Made by a program: the position numbers and the translations under genes
The notes under the pieces: generated by a model
What the model was told of the DNA's origin: nothing
The model's input: only the letters and a program-made list of their open reading frames with translations
Database searches by the model: none
Source of the DNA: Bacteroidaceae bacterium
GTDB lineage: Bacteria > Bacteroidota > Bacteroidia > Bacteroidales > Bacteroidaceae
DNA: 40,016 nucleotides
Direction of reading: 5' to 3'
Assembly: GCA_017548165.1 (NCBI GenBank)
Contig: JAFYMW010000107.1
Coordinates: 1-40,016 of the forward strand
Shown here: positions 171 to 40,016 of the stretch, piece after piece
How the letters are laid out: each line of letters starts with the position of its first letter
How positions within the stretch are numbered: position 1 is the first letter of the stretch

Positions 171-201
171 AACGGCGTTGGAACACCATTCCAACGCCGT
201 T
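171..201 (-). terminator. hairpin terminator after the tail-fibre gene
   Basis: A perfect 13-bp inverted repeat (171-183 and 189-201) encloses a 5-nt loop. On the minus strand it follows the stop codon of the 2292-residue gene by about 30 nt and is followed by an AU-rich tract, as expected for the end of the late operon. It also lies about 90 nt beyond the 3' edge of the DGR variable repeat, so it could double as the target-side cruciform known to aid retrohoming in the Bordetella phage DGR. That second role is inference. Confidence 0.7.
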
Positions 202-229: not shown

Positions 230-3200
230 CTACGCTACTTCGGCTATCGCCTTGTACGCTTCGACGCTTTGCGCTTTCTCGATTTTTCCGCGGAAGGCCA
301 GGCGCGACCCGTTAATCGCGCTCGAGCCCGACGCATCGTTATTCGCATTCGCGTACGACACACCGCCAACCGAGTTCGCGTAGTAGTAGCCACGATAAAC
401 CACACGGCTAAGTGAGCCAGTATACCAGTATTTATCGCAATAGTAAGTGGTTTCACTGCCTATCAGCGTTCCGACTGGTATGATGTCCATATACTTGCCG
501 TGGGCTACAGCAGTGGTAAACTGGTCGGAACCAGTCTTGGCTTTCACCTTTCGGGTTGTGCCGTCAGGCATTACTATATACCACTTGGCGTCTACTGTTC
601 CCTCATTCACCGACACATTGTCCATCATATCAAACTTGTGGCCGTAGATGTCTTCGTAGCCCAGGCAGTTGACATTGTTTATCTGCACATAGGAGCCGTT
701 CTCCTCGTACCACGCGTATGTGGTCTTCTTGTCGGGGTTGACGGTGTCCTTCATACCCAAGAACGCTGTTCCTCCTGTCTTGCGGGAGTTGGTATCTTGA
801 CCGTGGCCACATTGCATCTGGCTGTTGCGTCTGCCATACTTGGCAAAGAACAAGTTGCCGATGTCGCGGTGCATATCATAGTCTATCTGCTGCATTCCTC
901 GCACCTGGCTATAATAGTGGAAGTCGTTCCAGTTCATATTTGCTACAGTAGAACCTCCTGTAATACAGCTACGGAGCTTAGTGCCGACCACAGAACTACC
1001 GAACACTGCGGTCAAACACTCCTCGTGCTCTACCCAATCAGGCTCCATATCTTCAATTCTGTCGCTGTTTGAAAGCACAACCTTGTCAAATTCGGCGGTC
1101 TTGAATATGGTAAAATGCAACTCTGTAGCATCCCTCGGCACATCGCAGATTAGATACATACCACTCTCAAACTTCACTGACAACGAAGGAACAACAATGT
1201 TCTCAAGGACATTGCCCGAGGCATCGGTAAAGATTGACCCCATCAAGTTAGTACCTACAACAGATGGGAAACGGACACGCTTAAAGCCCGACACTTCAAC
1301 TCGGCAAACAGCATAGTTGGTGTCGCTTGCATAGGAGTTGGCAAGCGTGCCTTTGCCTGTCATAATCTTAAATTTGTCTTTATAGTCTCCTGCATCCATT
1401 ATATCCTGGAGAGACACGACTGTTGCCTCTGGAACATCGGGCATCGCCTTGTTGGTACTGTAGCAGCTATAATTCTTGCCGTGGAGATAGTCATTGATAC
1501 CCTTGAACCAATAATGAGGCTCAAACATCATAACATCTCCCTCGCTACCATCAAGCAGTGCAGCACTACAGTTGGAGGTCTTTTCCCCGTCTGCATAATA
1601 GTTCGAGTTCTCATCGTGCAACGGGAAGATCGTCATAACTCCGTCCTTGTTGTTTGCCGTGGTTTCAACTCCCGCAATAGTTATATTTCGGGTTGTTGGC
1701 TTGGTAGTAACCTTGCCCAGACAACGATAACGCTGCTTCAGGATGGCCTTGATATGGCCACTTGGGACATAGTCGTTTCCATAAGCGCAACCCGTATGAT
1801 TGTCCGGGTTGGTCACATTATCATCCTCTGCGACATTCTCGTCAAACTCTATCATTGTGTACTGCGGTTGCATTATATTCAACTCAGGATAGCGAGCCTT
1901 GTACTCAGCGTAAACTTCGTCATCAAGGTAGGCTGTGAGCTGATAAGAACCGACAAGGGCACAAGTATCTACCGCATTACCGTTCGCATCGATACCGCCA
2001 AGGTGCTTGTATCGTGCAAGGAAAGTCTCGTCTCCCGTCATATTCACACCTGTTATACGGATACGCTTGACATTGGAACAACGGGCAAGGATATTCTCCC
2101 AGTCCAGGTTCGGACACTCGGCAAAACGGAAGGTCTCGACGGCATCATAGCCCTCCACAAGAAGACCGTTGTTGTCGAGCTTGGGCAGATACTCCAAGCG
2201 CAACGCTGTAAGCGTAGCAGGAAGGACTGCCTCACGCACTGGAGCTCCTTCAGCGAATACAACGCTCTGGGCTTCTGTGCCTCCTGCATTCAACACCTCA
2301 AGACGTGTCTGGTTGGAGAAGTTCAACTCCGAAGAGGACAGTGTTCCTGTCCTGGCATTCTTCTGACCGTTCAAATTCACCTCTCGCAGTTGTCGGCACT
2401 GGTCAAGAACTGCACACCATCCTGATGCGCCTCCGCCTGTTGTGCTCAAATCAAGATACTGAAGGTTGGTACACTTGTTCAGGTTCACGTCACCCGTCAA
2501 ATTGTTTCCCACACCTCGCATATCAAGTTTCTTGGCTCTACTTGCGCCATACACTCGTATCGGGTCATTGACAGTAAACGCATCGGTAAAGGTCAGCGTT
2601 ACCTCCTCTCCCTTTTCCGCTCTCTGCGACGGCTGTATCGATGGTGAGTTGTTGGTACCATAGCCGAAGTAATAAACCTCGTTGGCTGTAACTACAATAG
2701 TATTGGCAGCCTCTGTCGCCTTGCGGGCAAGGTACATATCAATGTTGTCCGAACGATAGCTACCTGTCTCATACTTTGCATCGAGCAAGGCGTATCGGTT
2801 GCGGATGGTATGGATACGATGGTATTTACGGCTACCGTGCAAAGCGTAAATGTGCGGATACTTGGTAAGCGTACCCTTAACATTGACACCCTCAAGCATC
2901 GGTATGATGTATTTCCATTCTCCCGACTTGTTGTACTGTCGGGCTGACCAGTTACCCATCTGTTCCTCATTGAGCACCTGAAGAACTCGGTCAGGGGTCA
3001 TCACCTCACGCAAAGCAGCTGCAGCAGATTTGAGTTCTGCATCAAAGTTGGCAAGGATTAGGCACCAGAAGACACTTGCGTAGCCCTCGAAAGCATACTT
3101 GCTCTTTTCTGCGTCCCAGGTCTCACGGTCAACATCATACTTATAGGCAAGGAAACAGTCGTTTCTTACGAGGTAGGCAGTATCACCGTCATAGAACAGA

Positions 3201-6200
3201 ATATACCACACCTCACCGTCAAAGGTTATCCAGATCATATTCTTCACGCGCTGGTCAAAGCAGGTATTGTAATCTGTGAACACATAGAATGTCTGCATCC
3301 AGCGCGTATTGAAATACATCGAAGCCTCATTCTTGAACTTCTCGCTCCTAAAGGACGATATATCCTTGTAGTTTATAGTATCAGCATCCGCTGGTACACA
3401 ATCACGCACCCAACGCCACAAGCGCATAATAGCCTCCTTCTGGTAACTGTTAGCTTCCTTCTCGTCCTTTGCTGTGTTGGGGTTGTTCCATACAGTGTCC
3501 TTCGGGAAATTGAACTCAAGGGCATTGCCAAACTCATTGGCAAACTGCCTCTCTATATCCGAATCAACCTGGAACAAGCCCAGCTTCTGCGAATTGTTCA
3601 GGAACTCAAGGCTAATGACCTTGCTCTCATCGATGCCGGCAACGCCTTCGAATCCAACGACAGGAGCCCAACCCGACTTGTCATTGTTAAAGTTGTACTG
3701 ACCGTGATATGTCGGTTTCTCATCAATGGACTCTGCCGAGAACATATCACAAGGCCAACCGTTGATGGCTGTGCGGATAGTGTTGTCAATCTCCTGCGCT
3801 GGGGTAAACAAGCCAACCTCCTTGAAACAATCATTGAACAACTTTGCAAGACCTGTGTTGTGGGTCATAGAGCTATCCGAGTAGTCACACTTTGGATTGG
3901 CAACCTTGACAGCCTTATCCCCTGGCATAACAGGCATCTTCAAAGAATCCTGCTTCACACCATTGATCCAAAGCTCAGGCTCAACACCTTTGGAGAAGTA
4001 TATTCTGTAGTTCTTACGGGCATACTTCGTTGAAGAAGTACCCTGAATACGGATATATACATTCTTCAGGATGATTTCACCACCCCAAGGCGGGTAGATA
4101 TATACATCAGCAAGGAAGTTGGTATCCTTGTTGTTCTCCGCATTCACCTCGTCAAGACCTCCCTTTCGGACAATAAGAATAACACCCTTGCCTTTCTTAC
4201 GGATCTTGTCAATATCGATACCGAGACCTTCATCATCGAGCACGTCGTTCTTATCTGCCAGGTCTGCCATTTCCTCTGCCGTCGGGCGATCCACGATGTG
4301 GTTGCCCAACTCATCATCATCCGATATGGCGGTGTTATAAACACGGAGTATGCGGAATTCGACATCGGCATAACTACTATCTATGGTGATACCCTGGGGC
4401 GTGTCCTGAAGGAAGTTGTCAGCTTCAGCATATATATCTGCCTTGCTTCGCTCTCCATCAATGAACAGCTCCATCAATCTGCCATCAGCACGCTTGCCAA
4501 CGACAAACGCCACCTTCAGCCATTCCTCTGAAGCAAACTCCATACCTACACCGACATTGGTCACCACTTCATTGCCGTCCTCATCGGTCACGGTCTTTGT
4601 TGAACCCGTGTACATCGAGGCTTTCTCGGCCGTAATCTGGAAGCCCTTAGGACCAGACATACAGGTAATGACATCAGCCTCTCGGTCAACCACATTGGAA
4701 ACCTTGAACTCCATTTCAATAGTAAAACCGGTTGAAGCCACATCGGAGGCAAAGGGTTTATAATCGATATGAGCCTTTGCGCCATTACGCAATCGGAGCG
4801 ACTCCCCAGTCCAACCACTGGACTTCCAATCCACATTTTCGAATGTCGTTTGAACACCGTTAGAAGACCATACGGCGGGGTTCTCCTCGTCATTGCTTCG
4901 ACCTGCAGCATTCAGCTTCAGCACCATCCCATAGGTTGTTTCCCCAATGTTGACATGGCTCTCCGTTACATTGATATGGAACTGATATTCGGTCTCTCCA
5001 CACTTGAACATCATATCGTTTGTTCCTTGTGCGGTAAAACGGTTCTTGTATATCTGGCTTGTACGGGCAACACTCACGGTATGGCTCTTCACATTGCCAT
5101 TATATACATCCATCTTGGCCGGTGTCGTATTGGGATCATAGGCGACATACTCAAAAGAAAGTTGCTCATATTGTCCCACCTCAAGTGTTGGGGTAAGATG
5201 CTCCTCCGTAAATATGCGACCATCAGCAAAGCGGAGTTTGGTACCGATAAGGGGAGCATCGGTACCACTCTTGAATATGTCGACATAGATACTCTCGCTT
5301 CGCAATACCAAGCCCGAAGATACCTCCATCTCCGCCACCATCTGGATCGTATGGCGACCGAAAGAAAGCCCCGTCATTGATATTCCGAAACTGCCATTGG
5401 TTGTACCGCTTCGTGTTACCGTAGCAGTATTATACTGCATGCCGTCAAGGTAAACGGTAACGACCTTCGTTCCTGAACCACTGACTGCATAAGGGATATT
5501 CACCGTATCATATACCCCGTAACCACCACCCACAATGGAGTTGGCAAGGTTATAGGTACTCGTCAAAGAGAGGGCCACAACCTTAACGGAAACATAACTC
5601 TGCTTGGTCTGTGTCTTTCCCGTTTCAGGGTCAACAGTAGTAGCACGGACATAGATGTCAGTAGTACCGACAGACAGATATTTTGACAGGTCAAGCGTAT
5701 ATGTTCCCTTGCTGACATCCTGAATGGTGTTGTTGTATATCGACAAGGAACCATACTTCATCTGTATCTCGATAGTGGCTTTCTGTCCTGTTGTCACACC
5801 TTTGTCGTCTCCACTGCTATATTGGTGGTCATAAGTGTACGAAAGCATCGACGAGCCACCTTGCTTGATGGTTGTATTATCAACCGATGCATTCAAGAGG
5901 ATCTTCGTAGTGCTGGCATCAGCACCGCCACCGCCACCACTGCCGGCTGGGATATCAACGGAAGCAATCTCAGCTCCGCTCTTGTTGGTAAGGGCAAGGC
6001 GGACACTGCTCTCATCGTCGCTAATCTCTGCACTCATACCGAACACGGTATTGGCATCGACCTCGTTGAACTTACCAGCCACGGCTGAGTTCTGCACTGG
6101 GTTGGTACTATTAGCGTCCAGCGTCTCATCAACCTCTACCTCATTGATGGTGATATTCACATTACCCATAGCGTCGGGAGTCTGCTCCTCACCATTGACA

Positions 6201-7108
6201 ATGATAGCCTTCACCGTTCCAGCTCCGCCGAAGTCTTCCCAGCTTGCCTCTGCCTCCCAACTGTCAATGTCGGTGCCGGCAAACTGCTTGGTTTCCCATT
6301 TGCCTTGAGAAACCTCGTAGGTTATTGTGCGGCCTTTGGCACGCAGTTTGTCCTCGATAGCAACAATGGCTGTGGCAAGAGTATAAAAACCATTCTGAAG
6401 GGGGTATGCTTCCGACACATTGATAGTGTTACCACCTCCGCTTCCGCTAATCTCGACAAGGGTATTCTCATCGACACTCCAGGCATACATTGTATCACCC
6501 ATAAGGTACGCCTTGTTTTTCAATGGGCGATACCCAGAGTCCATATACAAAGCCATCGGGCGACCTACCGCATCCGTCCAATCACGATAATACACGGTAT
6601 TATAGAGATAAAGGAAACTGTTTGTGGTCGCATTATATACAATTTCACCCCCCGGCTTATCACAAGTCTCCACACTAAAATTGCTCAAGTTGACAAAGTC
6701 GTCAAACCTTACAGTCGCGCCATCACGCGCCAACTCTGCCGTATTCTTGTGCAAGGCGACAACCTCTCGGGCTTCGTCCGCTGCCTCGTTCGCATTTGTG
6801 GCAGCATCTTCGGCGTGCCCACAAGCTGTGCTTGCATTGGCAGCAGCCGTTGATGCAGTCTCTGCAGCCTCCTCCGCGACACCTGCAGCAGATGTCGCAC
6901 TGGCAGCTGCTGCATTTGCCGATTTCGCAGCATCTTCTGCAGGCTTACGCAACAACGATATTGGCGCACTTACCACCTCGGTACCACGCATTGCGGGGAG
7001 ACTGTTAACCCCGTCCAGACTATTCACTACAGGTAGTTCATCAACACTTTGAGATTCCGCCTTTAAGGCGTTAATCAATTCCTGTTTTTCTGCATTCGTT
7101 AGTGCCAT
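230..7108 (-). CDS. giant tail-tip receptor-binding protein, DGR target
   Basis: Predicted tail-tip adhesin of 2292 residues, last gene of the late operon. Visible parts in order: an Ala-rich coiled coil at about 55-117; beta-rich Ig-like segments at about 400-700; a LamG/concanavalin-like region at about 770-970; a region at about 1010-1370 resembling CotH-type atypical kinases (IQGTSSTKYARKNYRI, then an acidic DYSDSS and a YDGD segment); leucine-rich repeats at about 1520-1690; and a C-terminal C-type-lectin/FGE-like domain ending in the RVVYRG...NGSRLAF pattern of DGR variable proteins. The variable repeat spans residues 2232-2273, followed by only 19 constant residues. The fold assignments for LamG and CotH are tentative; the DGR target assignment is strong because the repeat matches the template at 25836-25960 with adenine-only differences. 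Its role is presumably binding a host surface glycan or protein. Confidence 0.88.
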   Translation of the reverse strand: MALTNAEKQELINALKAESQSVDELPVVNSLDGVNSLPAMRGTEVVSAPISLLRKPAEDAAKSANAAAASATSAAGVAEEAAETASTAAANASTACGHAEDAATNANEAADEAREVVALHKNTAELARDGATVRFDDFVNLSNFSVETCDKPGGEIVYNATTNSFLYLYNTVYYRDWTDAVGRPMALYMDSGYRPLKNKAYLMGDTMYAWSVDENTLVEISGSGGGNTINVSEAYPLQNGFYTLATAIVAIEDKLRAKGRTITYEVSQGKWETKQFAGTDIDSWEAEASWEDFGGAGTVKAIIVNGEEQTPDAMGNVNITINEVEVDETLDANSTNPVQNSAVAGKFNEVDANTVFGMSAEISDDESSVRLALTNKSGAEIASVDIPAGSGGGGGADASTTKILLNASVDNTTIKQGGSSMLSYTYDHQYSSGDDKGVTTGQKATIEIQMKYGSLSIYNNTIQDVSKGTYTLDLSKYLSVGTTDIYVRATTVDPETGKTQTKQSYVSVKVVALSLTSTYNLANSIVGGGYGVYDTVNIPYAVSGSGTKVVTVYLDGMQYNTATVTRSGTTNGSFGISMTGLSFGRHTIQMVAEMEVSSGLVLRSESIYVDIFKSGTDAPLIGTKLRFADGRIFTEEHLTPTLEVGQYEQLSFEYVAYDPNTTPAKMDVYNGNVKSHTVSVARTSQIYKNRFTAQGTNDMMFKCGETEYQFHINVTESHVNIGETTYGMVLKLNAAGRSNDEENPAVWSSNGVQTTFENVDWKSSGWTGESLRLRNGAKAHIDYKPFASDVASTGFTIEMEFKVSNVVDREADVITCMSGPKGFQITAEKASMYTGSTKTVTDEDGNEVVTNVGVGMEFASEEWLKVAFVVGKRADGRLMELFIDGERSKADIYAEADNFLQDTPQGITIDSSYADVEFRILRVYNTAISDDDELGNHIVDRPTAEEMADLADKNDVLDDEGLGIDIDKIRKKGKGVILIVRKGGLDEVNAENNKDTNFLADVYIYPPWGGEIILKNVYIRIQGTSSTKYARKNYRIYFSKGVEPELWINGVKQDSLKMPVMPGDKAVKVANPKCDYSDSSMTHNTGLAKLFNDCFKEVGLFTPAQEIDNTIRTAINGWPCDMFSAESIDEKPTYHGQYNFNNDKSGWAPVVGFEGVAGIDESKVISLEFLNNSQKLGLFQVDSDIERQFANEFGNALEFNFPKDTVWNNPNTAKDEKEANSYQKEAIMRLWRWVRDCVPADADTINYKDISSFRSEKFKNEASMYFNTRWMQTFYVFTDYNTCFDQRVKNMIWITFDGEVWYILFYDGDTAYLVRNDCFLAYKYDVDRETWDAEKSKYAFEGYASVFWCLILANFDAELKSAAAALREVMTPDRVLQVLNEEQMGNWSARQYNKSGEWKYIIPMLEGVNVKGTLTKYPHIYALHGSRKYHRIHTIRNRYALLDAKYETGSYRSDNIDMYLARKATEAANTIVVTANEVYYFGYGTNNSPSIQPSQRAEKGEEVTLTFTDAFTVNDPIRVYGASRAKKLDMRGVGNNLTGDVNLNKCTNLQYLDLSTTGGGASGWCAVLDQCRQLREVNLNGQKNARTGTLSSSELNFSNQTRLEVLNAGGTEAQSVVFAEGAPVREAVLPATLTALRLEYLPKLDNNGLLVEGYDAVETFRFAECPNLDWENILARCSNVKRIRITGVNMTGDETFLARYKHLGGIDANGNAVDTCALVGSYQLTAYLDDEVYAEYKARYPELNIMQPQYTMIEFDENVAEDDNVTNPDNHTGCAYGNDYVPSGHIKAILKQRYRCLGKVTTKPTTRNITIAGVETTANNKDGVMTIFPLHDENSNYYADGEKTSNCSAALLDGSEGDVMMFEPHYWFKGINDYLHGKNYSCYSTNKAMPDVPEATVVSLQDIMDAGDYKDKFKIMTGKGTLANSYASDTNYAVCRVEVSGFKRVRFPSVVGTNLMGSIFTDASGNVLENIVVPSLSVKFESGMYLICDVPRDATELHFTIFKTAEFDKVVLSNSDRIEDMEPDWVEHEECLTAVFGSSVVGTKLRSCITGGSTVANMNWNDFHYYSQVRGMQQIDYDMHRDIGNLFFAKYGRRNSQMQCGHGQDTNSRKTGGTAFLGMKDTVNPDKKTTYAWYEENGSYVQINNVNCLGYEDIYGHKFDMMDNVSVNEGTVDAKWYIVMPDGTTRKVKAKTGSDQFTTAVAHGKYMDIIPVGTLIGSETTYYCDKYWYTGSLSRVVYRGYYYANSVGGVSYANANNDASGSSAINGSRLAFRGKIEKAQSVEAYKAIAEVA
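290..414 (-). repeat. DGR variable repeat (VR)
   Basis: This 125-bp segment aligns without gaps to the template at 25836-25960 (opposite strand in the window). All 16 differences fall on adenines of the template; there are no other mismatches inside the block. Changed codons include AAC to TAC three times, AAT to GTT, AAC to GGC, AAC to AGC, AAT to ATT, AAC to TTC, AAC to CGC and ATA to CTT. Homology stops abruptly at both edges. A GC-rich stretch common to both copies (297-311 here) may help initiate homing. Confidence 0.95.
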
Positions 7109-22613: not shown

Positions 22614-23957
22614 ATGGGATTCAAGGATTCAATTATGGGCTTCTCCTCAAAGCCTGACAACATCATACACACCCCTCACGGGGATTTCTACCTTGCCAAG
22701 GGAGATAAAAGAGGGGTGCGAAAGGTCATCATAGACCTTCAAAAAACAACAGAGGCGCTCACCCGTCAGGATATGCAGGACTGGCGTCACGCCTGGCAGA
22801 TGGCTATCAATGTGGATAGCCCGAACAGGCAACGGCTCTATGACATCTACCGCGACGCTTTGGTTGACTTGCACCTATCGGGCTGTATAGAACAGCGCAA
22901 GGGCTTTGTGATGTCGCGTTCCTTCAAGTTGGTGGATGCCAAAGGTAAGGAGAACGAGGAAGCAAAGCATTACTTCGACCAGTCCTGGTTCAAGCAGCTG
23001 CTCAAGCACGCTCTCGACTCCATATATTGGGGCCACTCACTCATTGAGCTGGGCGATATAACTACAGACGGGGACGGTTGCATCTGCTATAACGGGGTAA
23101 CACTATTACCACGCAAGCACGTCATTCCTGAATATGGCCGTGTGGTACCACAGCTTGGTATGGACTGGACATCAGGAACGGAGTATCGCGAGCCCCCATT
23201 CAGCGACTGGCTCATCGAGGCGGGACAACCTGACGAGCTGGGGTTGCTTCTCAAGGCGGCAACACAGACCATCGCCAAGAAGAATATGCTTGGTTTCTGG
23301 GACACATTCGGTGAAATCTTCGGTATGCCTATGCGCATTGCCAGGACAACATCACGCGACCCTAAAGAGCACGCATCTCTGATGAGTATGCTCGATGCAT
23401 CAGGAACAAAGCTCTCGATGGTTACAACGACCGAAACAGAGATAGAGTTCAAGGAGTCAGCCAAGGGCGACGCATACAATGTGTACAACCAGCGCGTGGA
23501 TCGTGCGAACTCGGAACTCTCAAAGCTCATCATCGGGCAGACTATGACCATTGAGGACGGTAGCAGCCTCTCACAGTCACAAACCCACCTCCAAGTATTC
23601 GAGAACCTTGTGGAGAGTGACCGCAATATGCTGCGCGATATTGTCAACAACCAACTCATCCCACGAATGGTAAAACACGGGTTCCCCATCAAGGGACTGC
23701 GCTTTGAGTGGGACGATGCCGTTGACTATACCCCAGAGCAACAGGTGGCATACGAGACGATGATTGCCGATCGATACGAGGTGGACCCTACATACTTTGC
23801 AGAAAAGTATAGTATGCCTGTAGGTGAACGACGACAGGCAACACCTATCGCGCCAACTCCCGATGATGGCGATGAGCCTACTGAGGGGAATGAAGGTGAA
23901 GAGGGAAAGCAGAAGCCAAAAGGCAAGCAAAAGAACGCACGCCCTTTTTTCGATTAA
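22614..23957 (+). CDS. portal protein, Mu gp29-like (DUF935)
   Basis: A 447-residue portal. It shows the DUF935 flow: TRQDMQDWRHAWQMAINVDSPNR and LYDIYRDALVDLHLSGCIEQRK near residues 50-100, HALDSIYWGHSLIELGDI near 130-145, a NMLGFWDTFGEIFGMPMRIA stretch near 225-245, and the stem/crown with SKLIIGQTMTIEDGSSLSQSQTHLQVFENL near 300-330. The C-terminal tail is Glu/Lys/Gly-rich. It lies between the connector and the gpF-like gene, as in Mu. Confidence 0.93.
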   Translation: MGFKDSIMGFSSKPDNIIHTPHGDFYLAKGDKRGVRKVIIDLQKTTEALTRQDMQDWRHAWQMAINVDSPNRQRLYDIYRDALVDLHLSGCIEQRKGFVMSRSFKLVDAKGKENEEAKHYFDQSWFKQLLKHALDSIYWGHSLIELGDITTDGDGCICYNGVTLLPRKHVIPEYGRVVPQLGMDWTSGTEYREPPFSDWLIEAGQPDELGLLLKAATQTIAKKNMLGFWDTFGEIFGMPMRIARTTSRDPKEHASLMSMLDASGTKLSMVTTTETEIEFKESAKGDAYNVYNQRVDRANSELSKLIIGQTMTIEDGSSLSQSQTHLQVFENLVESDRNMLRDIVNNQLIPRMVKHGFPIKGLRFEWDDAVDYTPEQQVAYETMIADRYEVDPTYFAEKYSMPVGERRQATPIAPTPDDGDEPTEGNEGEEGKQKPKGKQKNARPFFD

Positions 23958-23971
23958 GCCCCACTGACTAT

Positions 23972-25453
23972 GTGGGGCTGCACCAAAGGTATGCAACACT
24001 GCTTGACGGTCAGCCTCTCCAGTTCATTGCCGGACGTAAAGAGCTGGAGGAAGAGATAAGGAAGGAAATGACAGAGCTCTTCACTGGGATGATGAAGGCA
24101 GTCTTTAGTCAGGAAGGGGCGCAGTTCACCGTTGAATTGCTGGAGACACCAAAGGTTCAGGAGTTCATAGGTACACACGCAAGGGTATTGGATACCTCGT
24201 TCGAGAAAGTAGAGATGTCCGACCTTATGCGCAAGCGACTCACCCGCTCAAACTACATCTTCTCCGGAATGAAGACCTTTCACGAGCTGAATGAGGCATT
24301 CCCTTCTCTGCTTGATGAGAACGGCAATAGAAAGTCATTCGAACAGTTTTTGAATGATGTTCGGAAGATAGACGAGAAGTACAACCGAAACTACCTCCGT
24401 GCCGAATACAACTTCGTGCAGTCCTCCGCTGAAATGGCTGCCAAATGGGAGCGCTTTATGGAGGACGGAGACAGATACAATCTCCAGTACAGAACTGCTG
24501 CAGATGGCAAGGTGCGCCCTGAACACGCATCAATGCACGGGATAACTCTGCCTCCTTCGGATTCGTTCTGGGAAGAGTTCTATCCACCCAATGGCTGGAA
24601 CTGCCGTTGTACCGTTGTACAGGTGCGCAAATCAAAGTACCCGACAACAGAGCACGATGAAGCGATAGCCCTCGGTGAACTCGCCACAGGTAAGGACACC
24701 AAAGGCATCTTCAGGTTCAACCCTGGCAAAGAGGGAAAGGCTATGCCCGACTATAACCCATACACAATACGCAAATGTAATGACTGCGATATTGCAAAGG
24801 ACATACTGAACACAGCAAAGCCTTACATTCCAGACAATGAAATGTGTGCTGCTTGTAAACTCATACGCGCTTGCTATGACGGCAAAACAAAAGAATCGGA
24901 ACGCCAACGCATCGAGGAGAACAGGAAGCTCTATGACAGACTTTCAAAGGACAAACGATACAAGGATGTCGAGTTCAATCCAACAACTGGGGCTTTGAAG
25001 GCGACTCACGTTGGGCATAATGAAGGTAGCGATGAGGGTTTCAGACTTGAGAAGAAATTGGTAAACCACCTGTATTCTTGTGGTCACAGTATCATACTCT
25101 CAGACGAGCAGAAGAAGGGACGTGACGGCAATGTTCTCACATCGCTTGATATGGTGTTGGACGGTGTTCGTATGGACATCAAATCAATTACCAAGAACAA
25201 AGCTCACTATGGTTCTGCTATCAGAGCAAAGAATAACCAGCTTGTCAAGTTTAATGCGAGAACTGATACACACGAATATGCGGACACGCTATGTATGTAT
25301 TTTGATGATCCTACTATGTTCTCTCCTGATAAGATTACTAAGGGATACGAATATATGAAATCAAAAACATCAAAGGAAATACAGGTTCACCGCATTATCT
25401 GCATCATCAATAGTGCCAAGGGGCTTGAGATAAAAACCTTTGAGTTTGAATAA
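23972..25453 (+). CDS. gpF-like minor head protein with C-terminal nuclease-like domain
   Basis: A 493-residue protein. The best start is GTG 23972 (VGLHQRYATLLDGQPLQF); the nearby ATG is out of frame. Residues 1-310 are the Mu gpF/SPP1 gp7 minor head fold, ending in the family signature FYPPNGWNCRCTVVQV. A CNDC...CAAC cysteine cluster follows near 270-300. Residues about 320-493 form an extra domain with E360 (RLEKKL), D393/D397 (LDMVLDG), and D402-x-K404 (MDIKS), the pattern of PD-(D/E)XK nucleases such as tRNase tails of contact-dependent toxins. Such toxin-like tails on head proteins are known from phage 'polyvalent protein' studies. The nuclease role and target are inference. Confidence 0.82.
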   Translation: MGLHQRYATLLDGQPLQFIAGRKELEEEIRKEMTELFTGMMKAVFSQEGAQFTVELLETPKVQEFIGTHARVLDTSFEKVEMSDLMRKRLTRSNYIFSGMKTFHELNEAFPSLLDENGNRKSFEQFLNDVRKIDEKYNRNYLRAEYNFVQSSAEMAAKWERFMEDGDRYNLQYRTAADGKVRPEHASMHGITLPPSDSFWEEFYPPNGWNCRCTVVQVRKSKYPTTEHDEAIALGELATGKDTKGIFRFNPGKEGKAMPDYNPYTIRKCNDCDIAKDILNTAKPYIPDNEMCAACKLIRACYDGKTKESERQRIEENRKLYDRLSKDKRYKDVEFNPTTGALKATHVGHNEGSDEGFRLEKKLVNHLYSCGHSIILSDEQKKGRDGNVLTSLDMVLDGVRMDIKSITKNKAHYGSAIRAKNNQLVKFNARTDTHEYADTLCMYFDDPTMFSPDKITKGYEYMKSKTSKEIQVHRIICIINSAKGLEIKTFEFE

Positions 25454-25541: not shown

Positions 25542-25775
25542 ATGGAGAAAATTATTTCATTTCTGAAAGAAAGCAACCGCTACAAGCACCTCATTGGTGG
25601 TCTGCTTGTAGGCTTGTTTGCGCTGTCTTCCTGGACTGCCATCTATTCAGCCATTGTAGCTGCTTCCTGTCTTGAGCTCAAGGACAAGCTAAAAGGGTGC
25701 TACTGGGATTGGGTGGATTGGCTGATTACCATTCTTGGTGGTGCTATTGCCGCCATTCTTTGGCTGTTCTTATGA
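25542..25775 (+). CDS. small membrane protein, holin candidate
   Basis: Start taken at ATG 25542 (77 residues); the frame continues upstream but crosses the hairpin region. Two hydrophobic segments are seen at about 17-40 (HLIGGLLVGLFALSSWTAIYSA) and 57-77 (WVDWLITILGGAIAAILWLFL), separated by a polar loop. The topology fits a class II holin, but the gene is far from the amidase on the opposite strand, so this is only one reading. Similar small two-helix proteins are common in Bacteroidales phages without assigned role. Confidence 0.6.
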   Translation: MEKIISFLKESNRYKHLIGGLLVGLFALSSWTAIYSAIVAASCLELKDKLKGCYWDWVDWLITILGGAIAAILWLFL

Positions 25776-25835: not shown

Positions 25836-25960
25836 CAATAAGCCGTGTGGTTTATCGTGGCAACAACAACGCGAACTCGAATGGCGGTGTGTCGTACGCG
25901 AATGCGAATAACGATGCGTCGAACTCGAACGCGAATAACGGGTCGCGCCTGGCAAACAAC
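25836..25960 (+). repeat. DGR template repeat (TR)
   Basis: The 125-bp donor copy for the variable repeat at 290-414 (inverted in the window). It is dense in AAC/AAT codons at the positions that vary. It is followed after 173 nt by the reverse transcriptase start, the usual TR-RT order. An open frame (25697-26059) runs through it only because the template mirrors a coding frame; it is not considered a gene. The downstream spacer contains small inverted repeats (near 25990) that may structure the template RNA. Confidence 0.95.
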
Positions 25961-26133: not shown

Positions 26134-27453
26134 ATGCCTAAAACTAACAGTATGCGAAGAGAAGGTTACATCATCGAGGAGATTGTGGACTACTCCAATA
26201 TGGCGGAGTCGTTCAACCAGGTACTCCGTGGCAAAAAGCGGAAACGCTGTCGCCAGGGGCGTTATCTTCTTGCGCATCGGGAGGAGGTCATTCAGGAACT
26301 GACCAAACAGATTGCCGACGGATCATTCCGTGTCAGCGGTTATCGTGAGAGGGAGATAATGGAGGGAGGCAAGCTCCGCCGTATCCAAGTCCTCACAATG
26401 AAAGACCGAATCGCTGTACACGCTATAATGGCCGTGGTGGATAGACATCTGAAGAAGCGGTTCATACGAACAACCTCCGCAAGCATCGAGGGACGGGGAA
26501 TGCACGACCTTATGAAGTACATTCGCCAAGACCTCAAAGATGATCCTGAAGGAACACGGTACTGCTACAAGTTCGACATCTCAAAGTTCTATGAGAATGT
26601 GAAGCAGGACTTCGTTATGTACTGCGTCCGCAGGGTGTTCAAAGACAAGACGCTCATCAACCTGCTCGACGGGTTTGTCCGTATGATGCCCGAAGGTATC
26701 AGCATCGGGCTACGCTCATCACAAGGCTTGGGCAACCTCTTGTTGTCTGTGTATTTAGACCATTATCTGAAGGACAGGTACGGAGTCCGTCATTTCTACC
26801 GCTATTGTGATGACGGGGTCGTACTCGGTAATGCGAAATCGGAATTGTGGAAGATTCGTGATGTTGTCCACGAGCAGTTGGAGCAGATAGACCTCAAGGT
26901 GAAAGCCAACGAGCGTGTGTTCCCCGTGGACGAGGGCATTGACTTCTTGGGATATGTCATATATCCCGACCATGTGCGACTACGCAAGCGCATCAAGCAG
27001 AAGTTCGCCCGAAAGATGCACGAGGTAAAAAGTAGAAAAAGGCGGCGTGTTTTGATAGCAAGTTTCTACGGAATGGCAAAGCACGCCAACTGTATAATGT
27101 TGTTTAATAAATTAACAGGCAAAGAAATGAAATCATTTAAGGATTTGAATGTCGCTTACAAGCCAGAAGATGGCAAGAAGCGATTTGCGGGTGAGGTGGT
27201 AAGCATCCGCGAGTTGGTAAACCTTCCAATCGTGGTCAAGGACTTTGAGACTGGGGTAAAGACCAGCCAAGGGGAAGACCGATGCGTTGTCGCCATTGAA
27301 GTGGACGGCAAGCTCAAGAAGTTCTTTACCAACTCGGAGGAAATGAAGAATATCCTCCAACAAGTGAGTGAAATGCCAGACGGATTCCCCTTTGAAACCA
27401 CCATCAAGTCGGAAACCTTCGGCAAAGGTAGAACAAAGTACGTCTTCACTTAG
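26134..27453 (+). CDS. DGR reverse transcriptase with extra C-terminal domain
   Basis: Start chosen at ATG 26134 behind an AGGAAGG purine stretch (439 residues); the open frame begins further upstream with TTG. Group II-intron-like fingers and palm: RRIQVLTMKDRIAVHAIM (about 85-102), YKFDISKFYENV with the first catalytic Asp near 150, the DGR-specific IGLRSSQ at 191-197 in place of the usual PQG-type motif, and catalytic YCDD at 224-227. After the thumb, residues about 332-439 form an added beta-rich domain (FAGEVVSIRELVNLPIVVKDFE ... FPFETTIKSE), which from memory resembles small OB-like, nucleic-acid-binding phage proteins. An internal ATG at 27127 could also give it as a separate product. 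It makes mutagenised cDNA from the template with errors at adenines. Confidence 0.95.
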   Translation: MPKTNSMRREGYIIEEIVDYSNMAESFNQVLRGKKRKRCRQGRYLLAHREEVIQELTKQIADGSFRVSGYREREIMEGGKLRRIQVLTMKDRIAVHAIMAVVDRHLKKRFIRTTSASIEGRGMHDLMKYIRQDLKDDPEGTRYCYKFDISKFYENVKQDFVMYCVRRVFKDKTLINLLDGFVRMMPEGISIGLRSSQGLGNLLLSVYLDHYLKDRYGVRHFYRYCDDGVVLGNAKSELWKIRDVVHEQLEQIDLKVKANERVFPVDEGIDFLGYVIYPDHVRLRKRIKQKFARKMHEVKSRKRRRVLIASFYGMAKHANCIMLFNKLTGKEMKSFKDLNVAYKPEDGKKRFAGEVVSIRELVNLPIVVKDFETGVKTSQGEDRCVVAIEVDGKLKKFFTNSEEMKNILQQVSEMPDGFPFETTIKSETFGKGRTKYVFT

Positions 27454-27474: not shown

Positions 27475-27957
27475 ATGAGAAGAATTGAAGGCTCTGCAGG
27501 GGTCAAACTGATAGAGTGCACACACCCTGTAAAAAACAAATGGCGCATCCGTTGGGATGTGCAGGGAAAAGAGGACGGCTCGGCTACCTATATGGAAGAG
27601 GAGTTCAACCACAAGCCAACAGAGGAGGAAATAAAGCAGACCATCATCGGCTGGATCAACTCACAGACCGACCAGGCTATCCTCTCCGGGTTCGAGTGGA
27701 ACGGTATGCCTATATGGTTGTCAAGCGAGAACCAGTTCAACTATAAGGCAGCCCACGACCTCGCCGTACAAATGAACGGGGCAACACTGCCCGTGAAGTT
27801 CAAGTTCGGAACGGACGATGTGCCTTGCTATCACACATTCCAGACCGTAGAGGAACTGACGGACTTCTATGTGCAATCAATCAAATATATTCAGGAAAAA
27901 CTGGATATCGGTTGGGCTCAAAAAGATGCTTTCAACTTGGAACCATACCGAGTGTAG
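27475..27957 (+). CDS. DUF4376-like protein
   Basis: A 160-residue protein 22 bp after the reverse transcriptase. The central part (about 50-110: IIGWINSQTDQAILSGFEWNGMPIWLSSENQFNYKAAHDLA) matches my memory of DUF4376, a domain found next to tail fibre genes and in fibre assembly proteins. Its adjacency to the DGR rather than to the tail genes suggests a helper for the diversified adhesin, for example a fibre chaperone, or a DGR accessory. No Avd-like four-helix bundle is evident in it. Confidence 0.62.
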   Translation: MRRIEGSAGVKLIECTHPVKNKWRIRWDVQGKEDGSATYMEEEFNHKPTEEEIKQTIIGWINSQTDQAILSGFEWNGMPIWLSSENQFNYKAAHDLAVQMNGATLPVKFKFGTDDVPCYHTFQTVEELTDFYVQSIKYIQEKLDIGWAQKDAFNLEPYRV

Positions 27958-28155: not shown

Positions 28156-28398
28156 ATGAAAGTAATTGAGATACTAAATTTGAATAAGGAACTGCTGAAA
28201 AAGTTCCAAACTGCAGGCATAAGAATGGAAGATGTCGAATATATCGACCTGTTTAACGAGTACCTGGCACTGGTTACTCAAGGGGAAAAGGTGTCTTACA
28301 TTGTGGCCACGCTTGCCGACAAGTACACCATCAGCGAGCGCAAGGTGTACGACTTGATACGACGCTTCAAATCCGACTGCAATCTATCTGCAGTGTAA
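28156..28398 (+). CDS. small HTH protein, candidate Mor-like activator
   Basis: An 80-residue protein whose C-terminal half (VSYIVATLADKYTISERKVYDLIRRFK, about 46-72) is a helix-turn-helix of the kind seen in Mor/C-type middle and late activators of Mu-like phages. The N-terminal half is acidic and may dimerise. It lies at the border between the DGR block and the modification genes, oriented with the late genes. Candidate regulator of the divergent late promoters; not proven by anything in the sequence. Confidence 0.62.
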   Translation: MKVIEILNLNKELLKKFQTAGIRMEDVEYIDLFNEYLALVTQGEKVSYIVATLADKYTISERKVYDLIRRFKSDCNLSAV

Positions 28399-28467: not shown

Positions 28468-29106
28468 ATGAACAAGTATCATCAAATCCTGCACAAAGTG
28501 CTTGCCAATGGCAAGACACAGACGAACAAGAAGGGGAACATCCGCTACTTGCTCAATGAACAACTGTCACTAACCCCTGCCGACCTGCTCGACATCTTCG
28601 AGGGGCACGGCATAGCACGCAAGAAACTCCGCTCCGAGCTTCAGCTGTTTATGCAAGGTGAGCGCAATGTGGAGAAGTACCGCGATGCCGGTATCAACTG
28701 GTGGGACTATTGCGGTTCTATCCTGGTCAACTCTTACCCGACCTACTTTGAGAAACTGCCCCCACTATTAGAGAAAATCAATCGTGAAAAGCGGAACAGC
28801 AAGAACTATGTCCTGTTCCTTGGTGCCACCAATGCCGAGAGCAATCAGGCACCTTGCTTGAGCCTGGTACAGTTCCAGATCGACGAGGGCGAACTTGTCA
28901 TATCTGCATACCAGCGCAGTTCCGATGCAAACCTCGGGCTCCCTGCAGATATTTATCACCTCTACCTCATGTCTCGACAGATAGACCTGCCTTTGAAATC
29001 AATAACGCTGTTTCTTGGTAATGTTCACATCTACCAAAGCAATATAGAGAAAACCGAGTTGTTGCTGGGAGGCAACGAGAATGTAAAATTTGAATTAAAC
29101 ACTTAA
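28468..29106 (+). CDS. thymidylate-synthase-fold enzyme, dCMP hydroxymethylase-like
   Basis: A 212-residue protein clearly of the thymidylate synthase superfamily. Matches to E. coli ThyA motifs: HKVLANGKTQTNKKG (N-terminus), ELQLFMQGERN (equivalent of the Glu58 helix), NWWDYCG, the catalytic APC...QF, YQRSSD, LGLPADI and VHIYQSN (His207/Tyr209 pair). The position of ThyA Asn177 is Asp here (LGLPADI versus LGLPFNI), the change that marks dCMP hydroxymethylases such as T4 gp42. The Arg pair of the phosphate site (ThyA 126/127) is replaced (NSKNYVLF) and the protein is about 50 residues short. It probably acts on cytosine nucleotides for DNA modification, or on another substrate. It overlaps the methylase by 1 bp. 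Confidence 0.82.
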   Translation: MNKYHQILHKVLANGKTQTNKKGNIRYLLNEQLSLTPADLLDIFEGHGIARKKLRSELQLFMQGERNVEKYRDAGINWWDYCGSILVNSYPTYFEKLPPLLEKINREKRNSKNYVLFLGATNAESNQAPCLSLVQFQIDEGELVISAYQRSSDANLGLPADIYHLYLMSRQIDLPLKSITLFLGNVHIYQSNIEKTELLLGGNENVKFELNT

Positions 29107-29960
29107 TGAAAAAAAACTATCTGTCCGCCCCTCTGCCATTCGTGGGGCAAAAGCGTATGTTCGCACGCGAGTTCATCAAGGTGCTCGAGCAATATCCCGA
29201 GGATACCGTCTTCGTGGATCTGTTCGGTGGTTCTGGATTATTGTCGCACATTGCCAAGTGCCAAAAACCAAATGCCACTGTAGTATATAACGACTTCGAC
29301 AACTACCGTCATCGCTTGGAGAACATACCCCGAACCAATTTCCTACTCGCTGACCTACGCTCCATCGTGGGCGATATGCCGAAGCACAGCTGCATCAAAG
29401 GGGAAAAGCGAGACCTCATATTTGCCCGTCTGGAACAGGAAGAGCGAGAATATGGATACATTGACTTCATCACCATATCCTCAGCTCTGATGTTCTCGAT
29501 GAAGTACAAGTTGAGCATACCCGAAATGAAGAAGGAGGCTCTCTATAACAACATTCGCAAGGCTGACTATCCTCCATCAGCGGACTACCTCGAGGGTATC
29601 ACCATCGTTTCGGCTGACTACAAAGAGGTATTCAAGCAATACAAGGATACTCCGAATGTTGTGTTCCTGGTTGACCCTCCTTACTTGAGTACAGAGGTAG
29701 GCACATACAGCATGTACTGGAAGTTGGCAGACTACCTCGATGTGCTTACCATCTTGTCCGGGCATCAGTTCATATACTTCACATCGAACAAATCGTCTAT
29801 CGTTGAGCTTTGCGATTGGCTGGGCAAGAATCCCACCGTAGGTAACCCATTCAGGAACTGCCGAAAGGTTGAGTTCAACGCCACAATGAACTACAATGCC
29901 CACTATACAGACATGATGTTCTACACCCAAAAGGGGGAAGAACATCGCATTGCCGCCTAA
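29106..29960 (+). CDS. D12-class DNA adenine N6-methyltransferase
   Basis: A 284-residue methyltransferase. The order of motifs is Dam-like: motif X-like APLPFVGQKR at 8-17, SAM-binding FVDLFGGSGLLS at about 37-48, YNDFD at about 60, and the catalytic LVDPPYLS at about 195-202, with a late YFTSNKSS strand. The middle insertion (IDFITISSALMFSMKYKLS) takes the place of the usual target recognition domain. Coupled to the upstream thymidylate-synthase-like gene through a TAATG junction, so the two are probably co-translated for DNA modification that protects against host restriction. Target sequence unknown. Confidence 0.9.
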   Translation: MKKNYLSAPLPFVGQKRMFAREFIKVLEQYPEDTVFVDLFGGSGLLSHIAKCQKPNATVVYNDFDNYRHRLENIPRTNFLLADLRSIVGDMPKHSCIKGEKRDLIFARLEQEEREYGYIDFITISSALMFSMKYKLSIPEMKKEALYNNIRKADYPPSADYLEGITIVSADYKEVFKQYKDTPNVVFLVDPPYLSTEVGTYSMYWKLADYLDVLTILSGHQFIYFTSNKSSIVELCDWLGKNPTVGNPFRNCRKVEFNATMNYNAHYTDMMFYTQKGEEHRIAA

Positions 29961-37984: not shown

Positions 37985-38311
37985 TTATGAATGTGATATT
38001 GTCTGTTCAGGTCCTTGCTCAAAAGGAACTTCCGGATCAAGACTTCCGAAACGTATGTAATCCTCTCGTGTCAATGCTTGATGCTTTGAGTGAAACACTT
38101 TGCCACAAAACTGGCACTTCAAGGTTTTATCATCCAGCAGAACTAATTGATGCCCAGCACAGAGCCCTCCGTTGGCATGTTGTTCTCTCGCTGGGCAAGG
38201 AACGTCTTTCAACTCTACAAGAGTTTCTGAGTCTTTTCCTGTCATCTTCTGGTATTCAAGTACCTTTCTGCACTCTGCAATGGAAGATAGAATAAATAGT
38301 CCCATAGCCAT
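37985..38311 (-). CDS. small early protein with zinc-knuckle-like motif
   Basis: A 108-residue protein with Cys/His pairs (VPCPAREQHANGGLCAGH and LKCQFCGKVFHSKHQ at about 65-90) that could bind zinc; otherwise no recognised family. Second gene of the leftward early operon. Confidence 0.62.
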   Translation of the reverse strand: MAMGLFILSSIAECRKVLEYQKMTGKDSETLVELKDVPCPAREQHANGGLCAGHQLVLLDDKTLKCQFCGKVFHSKHQALTREDYIRFGSLDPEVPFEQGPEQTISHS

Positions 38312-38312
38312 A

Positions 38313-38717
38313 TTATTTTAGATTGTTCTTAATATACTCTCTGTCTTCTTTCCATAGAGGGTAACCCATCTTCACTTTGTGGAGAACGGCTGCTTTGCGA
38401 CCTACAATCCTGATGGCTTCATTATAGAAGTCTGTGTCATCATAGGCTGAAGCCTTACCAATGAGGAACCACGCAAGTTCCTCCATTCTGTTATGACAAT
38501 CCTCGAGTTCATTGTTTCTCTCCTCAAGCATTCCGCTGGCGATAGTAGCCTGTTTTGCCAACTCAATAGTCAAAGGGTTATTACCAGTCTGTAACCAACG
38601 CTTGCAGAACTCGTGCTTATCCATATTAGGAACTGCGTAATACATTTTCTCTATACCTTGGTACTCCTCTTCTGTTACCTTGCGACCGGTGAGGTCCTGA
38701 AATTCGATCTGTGTCAT
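38313..38717 (-). CDS. first gene of the early operon, hypothetical
   Basis: A 134-residue helical protein (TEEEYQGIEKMYYAVPNMDKHEFCKRWLQTG, ASGMLEERNNELEDCHNRMEELAWFLIGKA). It is the first gene behind the leftward early promoter, with a leader of about 80 nt. I recognise no family; such proteins recur upstream of transposases in Bacteroidales Mu-like phages as far as I recall. Confidence 0.68.
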   Translation of the reverse strand: MTQIEFQDLTGRKVTEEEYQGIEKMYYAVPNMDKHEFCKRWLQTGNNPLTIELAKQATIASGMLEERNNELEDCHNRMEELAWFLIGKASAYDDTDFYNEAIRIVGRKAAVLHKVKMGYPLWKEDREYIKNNLK

Positions 38718-39975: not shown

Positions 39976-40016
39976 GTGCCCGGTAGAGGCCACTTATCTG
40001 GCTTGGGTGGACGAAC

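Follow-up and report, generated by a model that had tools for sequence, protein, structure and literature searches.

A diversity-generating retroelement with its template about 25 kb from its target, on the opposite strand, in a Mu-like prophage of Bacteroidales

The diversity-generating retroelement (DGR) of phage BPP-1 (NC_005357) transfers information from a template repeat (TR) to a variable repeat (VR) with changes specific to adenines (PMC3240598, PMC12875486). Like the element described here, it has a homologous reverse transcriptase (RT) and a structured RNA between TR and RT; it differs in having an adjacent avd gene and the Phage_DGR RNA (RF03022), whereas the present element has the RT-3 RNA, an extended RT, no recognised Avd and a remote target. 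Hankyphage p00 (BK010646) is closer, being likewise a Mu-like phage of Bacteroidales in which a very large ORF of the tail module carries the VR at its C-terminal end; a C-type lectin domain has been attributed to this target (PMC6199706). The hankyphage DGR is reported to be active in culture (PMC12135933). In p00, the VR (38049-38164) and TR (38419-38534) are adjacent and on the same strand, while in the phage analysed here TR and RT lie behind MuF, 25 kb from the VR and on the other strand. Remote VRs are known from Trichodesmium (PMC8867640) and were searched for in a further study (PMC12629997). The Trichodesmium remote targets are described as occurring beside proximal ones (PMC8867640), whereas here the only VR found is remote and resides in a phage, and such VRs are at the same relative place in 14 related elements. 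The mechanism of DGRs is known, and it is the split layout in hankyphage-like phages that appears to be new; no description of it was found in the parts of the literature searched.

The stretch of DNA analysed (the window, 40,016 nt) is one entire contig (G000:C132) of the host assembly. Homology with the prophage of its closest relative spans positions 32 to 39985 and stops there, so the contig amounts to roughly a single prophage, flanked by some 31 bases on either side (1-31 and 39986-40016). By eye, these terminal regions bear GAACGAA-like motifs, possibly transposase sites. The Mu-type genes comprise a portal (Portal_Mu, 2.3e-74) and MuF (Phage_Mu_F, 6.1e-16), which form the head genes at 22614..25453 (+) upstream of the DGR cassette, and Mu gp36 (1.8e-13). 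A Mu-like protease, capsid, tail tube, tape measure and terminase are also present, and a transposase was recognised from a PHROG match (3.4e-53), without a Pfam match. On this gene content the contig is classified as a prophage of Mu-like type from a Bacteroidales gut bacterium, related to hankyphage, and the earlier note, written from the letters alone, was right to call it Mu-like. Its further suggestion that the phage fits the hankyphage group stands for the cassette: the RT (77% amino acid identity), thymidylate synthase (84%), DUF4376-like protein, methyltransferase and the RT-3 RNA between TR and RT are shared with p00, and the VR end of the target is 60% identical. It does not stand for the rest of the genome, as portal and MuF are only about 30% identical, the cassette is in a different place, and whole-genome similarity is 15.6% by our own blastn-based estimate, which is not a VIRIDIC value. 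The criterion given for the hankyphage genus is an intergenomic similarity above 70% (PMC12135933), and by this estimate the window phage falls outside it and is not a hankyphage.

The DGR target gene (230..7108, minus strand) is the last gene before the prophage end and encodes a protein of 2292 aa, the length given earlier. It matches PHROG 14959 and 24896 (both of unknown function); no Pfam family was found in it, and PDB sequence searches yielded nothing credible for the fold of the VR domain. Exact alignment of the TR (25836-25960, plus strand) with the VR (290-414, minus strand) extends over 125 bp without gaps and contains 16 mismatches, all at TR adenines, the same count as in the earlier note. 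The pair was also recovered as inverted arms within the window, and a search of the host assembly with the TR yielded these two copies only and no third. The core bounded by perfect matches covers TR positions 6-118, or 113 bp, with the TR core at 25841..25953 (+) and the VR core at 297..409 (-), the latter near the C-terminus of the target and ending 64 coding bases from the stop codon. All nine core mismatches are at TR adenines and none of the 85 non-adenine positions is altered; with 28 adenines among 113 bases, the probability of nine of nine by chance is (28/113)^9 = 3.5e-6. The nine changes affect codon positions 1 or 2 only, and are located in seven of the 12 AAY codons that the TR core contains in the reading frame of the target.

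The remaining seven of the 16 mismatches are at the edges of the 125 bp alignment. Opposite TR positions 119-124, which account for five of them, the VR encodes LAFRG in all 26 sequences reaching this site (among 27 aligned rows that include the window, some near-identical). Because of this constancy the five are not attributed to mutagenesis: TR positions 119-124 lie outside the homology and hold fixed differences rather than products of mutagenesis or retrohoming, while the mismatches at TR positions 3 and 5 are edge positions and ambiguous. Reading all 16 differences as retrohoming was thus an overstatement at the 3′ edge, although the adenine-specific transfer itself is upheld by the core. 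With a TR and VR that differ at adenines, a DGR-type RT beside the TR, a structured RNA in the interval between these two and the VR in the 3′ end of the target gene, the element is a DGR.

The cassette follows the head operon on the plus strand, opposite to the strand of the VR and some 25 kb distant from it, and is arranged in the order small ORF, TR, RT-3 RNA, RT, DUF4376-like protein, 80-aa ORF, thymidylate synthase and methyltransferase. The RT (26152..27453, +; 433 aa) begins at an ATG matching the p00 start and carries the motif IGLRSSQ, as had been noted; GxxxSQ is described as the motif of most DGR RTs (PMC12386605). The best solved match of the RT family is the BPP-1 DGR RT (PDB 8ub7, identified as such by a search with the BPP-1 protein), which covers residues 2-321, and the window and BPP-1 enzymes are 29% identical over 330 aligned positions. 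Past the end of the BPP-1 match is a C-terminal extension of about 112 aa that is kept in relatives and has no counterpart in BPP-1. A second, distant RT-like frame (25%) is present on another contig of the host assembly (G000:C88:374-1252).

The small ORF upstream of the TR (25542..25775, +; PHROG 38535) has two hydrophobic stretches by eye and does not match the Avd model. Profile searches gave no match to this model anywhere in the window prophage, nor in any of 27 related records, p00 among them; the positive control, BPP-1 Avd, was run separately and scored 106.9 bits by hmmscan. Avd is not known to occur in all DGRs. A firm claim that window-type DGRs lack it is opposed by the hankyphage papers, since a figure legend of the 2025 paper marks an Avd (PMC12135933) and a small ORF resembling Avd in size and charge is named by Benler et al. 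(PMC6199706), and we write only of no recognised Avd. DGRs with no recognisable Avd bear on the role of the accessory protein. Elsewhere in the host assembly there is a sub-threshold Avd-like frame, on another contig (G000:C109:11437-11748).

Downstream of the RT, the DUF4376-like protein (27475..27957, +; PHROG 19239) scores 24.7 bits against Pfam, slightly below the cut-off of 25. Its place directly after the RT is kept in 56 of the 57 genome-contig loci that were labelled and also in two more distant RT-3 loci (L119, L120), making it a candidate accessory protein. The 80-aa ORF (28156..28398, +; PHROG 17790) is weakly HTH-like, with no Pfam match above the cut-off, and the thymidylate synthase and D12-class adenine methyltransferase genes (28468..29960, +) are frequent companions of the cassette.

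Relatives were collected by an RT scan, taking the best 80 of 99 loci in viral contigs and 59 loci in genome contigs, and two layouts were found. In the adjacent layout, as in p00, VR and TR are a few hundred bases apart on one strand; in the distal layout the cassette is placed after portal and MuF. Of the 59 genome-contig loci, 57 were labelled by their neighbouring genes, 35 as adjacent, 16 as distal and 6 as too short for a decision; the other two were left unlabelled. In 14 distal relatives (five viral contigs and nine genome contigs) a single contig carries both the VR gene and the TR, which are on opposite strands and separated by about 25-27 kb. Hosts of the distal layout include Mediterranea massiliensis, Parabacteroides massiliensis, Paraprevotella clara and Hoylesella shahii, and both layouts occur within each of the first three species. 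A simple inversion between TR and VR of a hankyphage was set aside by reasoning, as it predicts the wrong gene order and the head genes also differ. Exact matching with a segment beyond the VR turned up no near-identical phage. A perfect copy of a 42-bp segment of the TR is present in each of four contigs, which are of the adjacent type without exception, and only one of 50,697 phage records, a 4.4-kb fragment (72%), has a portal at least 60% identical. A large survey pipeline is described as seeking repeats up to 20 kb from the RT (PMC8144416), a limit that would miss the VR of the window. In one relative (L063, 9787-9850) the TR appears to have lost an internal segment, whereas the VR retains its full length.

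The closest relative, a Bacteroidaceae MAG from water deer (L126), has an RT 96% identical and a target of the same 2292 aa with an 88% identical end. Its TR differs from that of the window at core positions 83, 96 and 103, two of which are G in the window TR, and all three substitutions are carried by its VR, 25 kb away. The two VR cores differ at 21 positions, and the remaining 18 of these are at TR adenines. The same correspondence was seen across 14 distal pairs that include the window (L134, whose VR no longer aligns, and L181 being left out): at variable columns that are never A, VRs mismatch their own TR in 15 of 340 cells and other TRs in 1499 of 4292. The minimum over 10,000 shuffled TR-VR pairings was 49, against the observed 15, a figure to be taken as a guide because the TRs of L148 and L038 are alike at the tested columns and the pairs are related by descent.

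Adenine bias is seen in both layouts. The first six distal pairs have 67 mismatches at adenines and 10 elsewhere, eight of the latter from L058, and 36 distinct adjacent pairs have 381 at adenines and 27 elsewhere, 13 of them from L034. Where adjacent relatives share an identical TR core, eight pairs were informative: the VRs of seven differ at 6 to 15 sites, every one a TR adenine, and those of the eighth at 15 sites, 13 of them TR adenines. Some of these pairs are not independent of one another, and one further pair is identical throughout. At the level of genome comparison, these data demonstrate TR-to-VR flow across 25 kb together with its adenine bias. They also lend indirect support to the repeated mutagenic retrohoming proposed earlier, in that TR-specific substitutions of relatives recur in distant VRs. 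As judged from natural genomes, a phage DGR can thus keep a target on the opposite strand and 25 kb away matched to the template, and proximity is therefore not needed.

We consider it very probable that the window element is a DGR with donor and target split. The cassette (TR, RT-3 RNA, RT and DUF4376-like protein) is in line with the head-side genes and separate from the target; the RT would copy an RNA bearing TR plus RT-3, with errors opposite adenines, and the cDNA would take the place of the VR in the C-terminal end of the tail-module gene, at a distance of about 25 kb and on the opposite strand. New VRs would then give new receptor-binding variants. By analogy with BPP-1 and hankyphage, receptor binding is the probable function of the target, priming would occur within RT-3, and the DUF4376-like protein may act as an accessory.

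The present activity of the window DGR is something we infer, and a relic, in which the DGR worked formerly and is now silent with the VR a frozen variant, is unlikely but has parallels among relatives. Five of 15 distal elements, the window included, have VR/TR pairs that look decayed: non-adenine mismatches number 4 in L128, 10 in L176, 7 in L170 (over a 79-bp core) and 8 in L058, and the VR of L134 does not align to its TR over 70 bp. In the 14-pair comparison, L128 and L176 each have a VR that resembles the TR of another phage more than its own. Among adjacent-type elements, the DGR of L029 is probably dead, with no TR found between VR and RT upstream of 10001 and an internal stop in the RT, while its RT-3 still scores 96 bits. 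The window differs from these in that its RT is open, its RT-3 scores 131.7 bits, and no non-adenine position of the core has drifted, while the aligned target end and flank outside the core differ from L126 at 99 of 754 positions. It shares with nine of the 14 distal relatives a VR that shows zero or one non-adenine mismatch to its own TR. The distal-type pairs of Paraprevotella clara YIT 11840 and Hoylesella shahii DSM 15611 look intact.

The split-DGR reading includes RT-3 in the template RNA. This RNA (Rfam RF03068; 25972..26119, +) scores far above its gathering score of 40.5, starts 18 nt past the end of the TR core and ends before the RT start codon at 26152. It was above the cut-off in all 50 related records searched, out of 81 RT-bearing records. 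Of 393 genomes of the order, searched with stricter filters, four contained it, and at all four sites an RT is just downstream, a TR-like stretch just upstream, and a second copy of that stretch elsewhere in the genome. Mismatches between the two copies are biased to adenines in the window genome, G459 and G306 (2 of 12 being at T in G306), and in G364 the second copy is on another contig at 93% identity. Folding of 28 sequences from both layouts gave 33 predicted pairs, 21 of them with at least one compensatory change. In BPP-1, the same interval between TR and RT holds Rfam Phage_DGR RNA (RF03022, 104.7 bits), and RT-3 is read as its counterpart by position, a putative structured spacer of the TR RNA. 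RT-3 might instead serve the RT gene as a leader or regulator distinct from the template RNA, which would suit its ending just ahead of the RT start codon; this is rather improbable given how close to the TR core RT-3 begins, its presence in every related record searched, and the matching place of the BPP-1 RNA. RT-3 is reportedly described in Weinberg 2017. Among the papers covered by full-text searches, none was found that ties RT-3 or RF03068 to DGRs, although the link may be in print in that work. The family is named in the Rfam 15 paper and in PMC7657543, where the passages concern its base pairs and not DGRs. A role in DGRs gives this curated RNA family a testable job. In the distal-type relative L036 (9750-9860), an insertion of about 60-70 bp separates the TR from RT-3.

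DNA repeats longer than 100 bp at about 90% identity can undergo gene conversion, and the VR could in principle follow the TR by homologous recombination or conversion between the repeats, with no reverse transcription. Adenines would then be copied as faithfully as other bases, whereas adenines account for all nine mismatches of the window core and for 67 of the 77 counted over the first six distal pairs; with a DGR-type RT and the RT-3 RNA adjoining the TR as well, this explanation is very improbable. Least credible is that the distal opposite-strand layout arose by faulty assembly of an ordinary hankyphage, broken at its adjacent repeats: VR and TR are indeed near-identical repeats, and contigs L124 and L091 end in or at the VR, but the idea is rejected because 14 other contigs have the same layout, always with opposite strands and the same spacing, and they include the named isolates M. 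massiliensis, P. massiliensis, P. clara and H. shahii and a 181-kb contig with host flanks.

The history of the cassette was examined with a tree of 132 RT rows, 117 of which carry a layout label, and this tree requires 12 layout changes by parsimony, at least six of them forced by well supported branches; the tree was built by a quick method and has long branches, its labels come from neighbouring genes, and those of L028 and L059 are based on weak evidence. A window-like portal (68-83%) is found in all nine distal records tested. Among 21 adjacent records, the portal is 23-32% identical to that of the window in 13, 71% in L041, 65% in L013 and 49% in L071, and five have no match. That layout simply tracks phage lineage was rejected as a full account, given the window-like portals of the adjacent-type L041 and L013 and the six or more tree changes. 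Because of these portals (including that of L071) and the changes in the RT tree, cassette position and head lineage are linked without being locked together, and the block behaves as a module. L013 and L014 have identical TR cores, with portals 65% and 30% identical to the window, which reads as a head-module exchange around one cassette. It is conceivable, though we doubt it on balance, that the RT-3-type DGRs of Bacteroidales Mu-like phages form a distinct Avd-less class, in which a C-terminally extended RT and its DUF4376-like partner, with RT-3 serving as both guide and primer, would make up a self-contained, trans-acting module. Such a module would have settled repeatedly either beside its target or 25 kb off on the opposite strand, and would move between head lineages as one block.

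Directly past the target gene is a perfect 13-bp hairpin with a 5-nt loop (171..201), which may be a terminator or a DGR target hairpin. The target hairpin of BPP-1 is described with a 4-nt GRNA loop (PMC3240598). Perfect hairpins of at least 9 bp, all with 5-nt loops, occur about 90-115 bp past the VR in six of eight records of the first set (the window, L215, L085, L087, L090 and the adjacent-type L084, and not L089 or L086), and in none of 28 other adjacent-layout loci. Because of this patchy distribution, and with loops of 5 nt, the hairpin was dropped as evidence for a BPP-1-like DGR target. In the closest relative, L126 (VR locus L215), the stem is identical to that of the window and the loop is its reverse complement, as if flipped.
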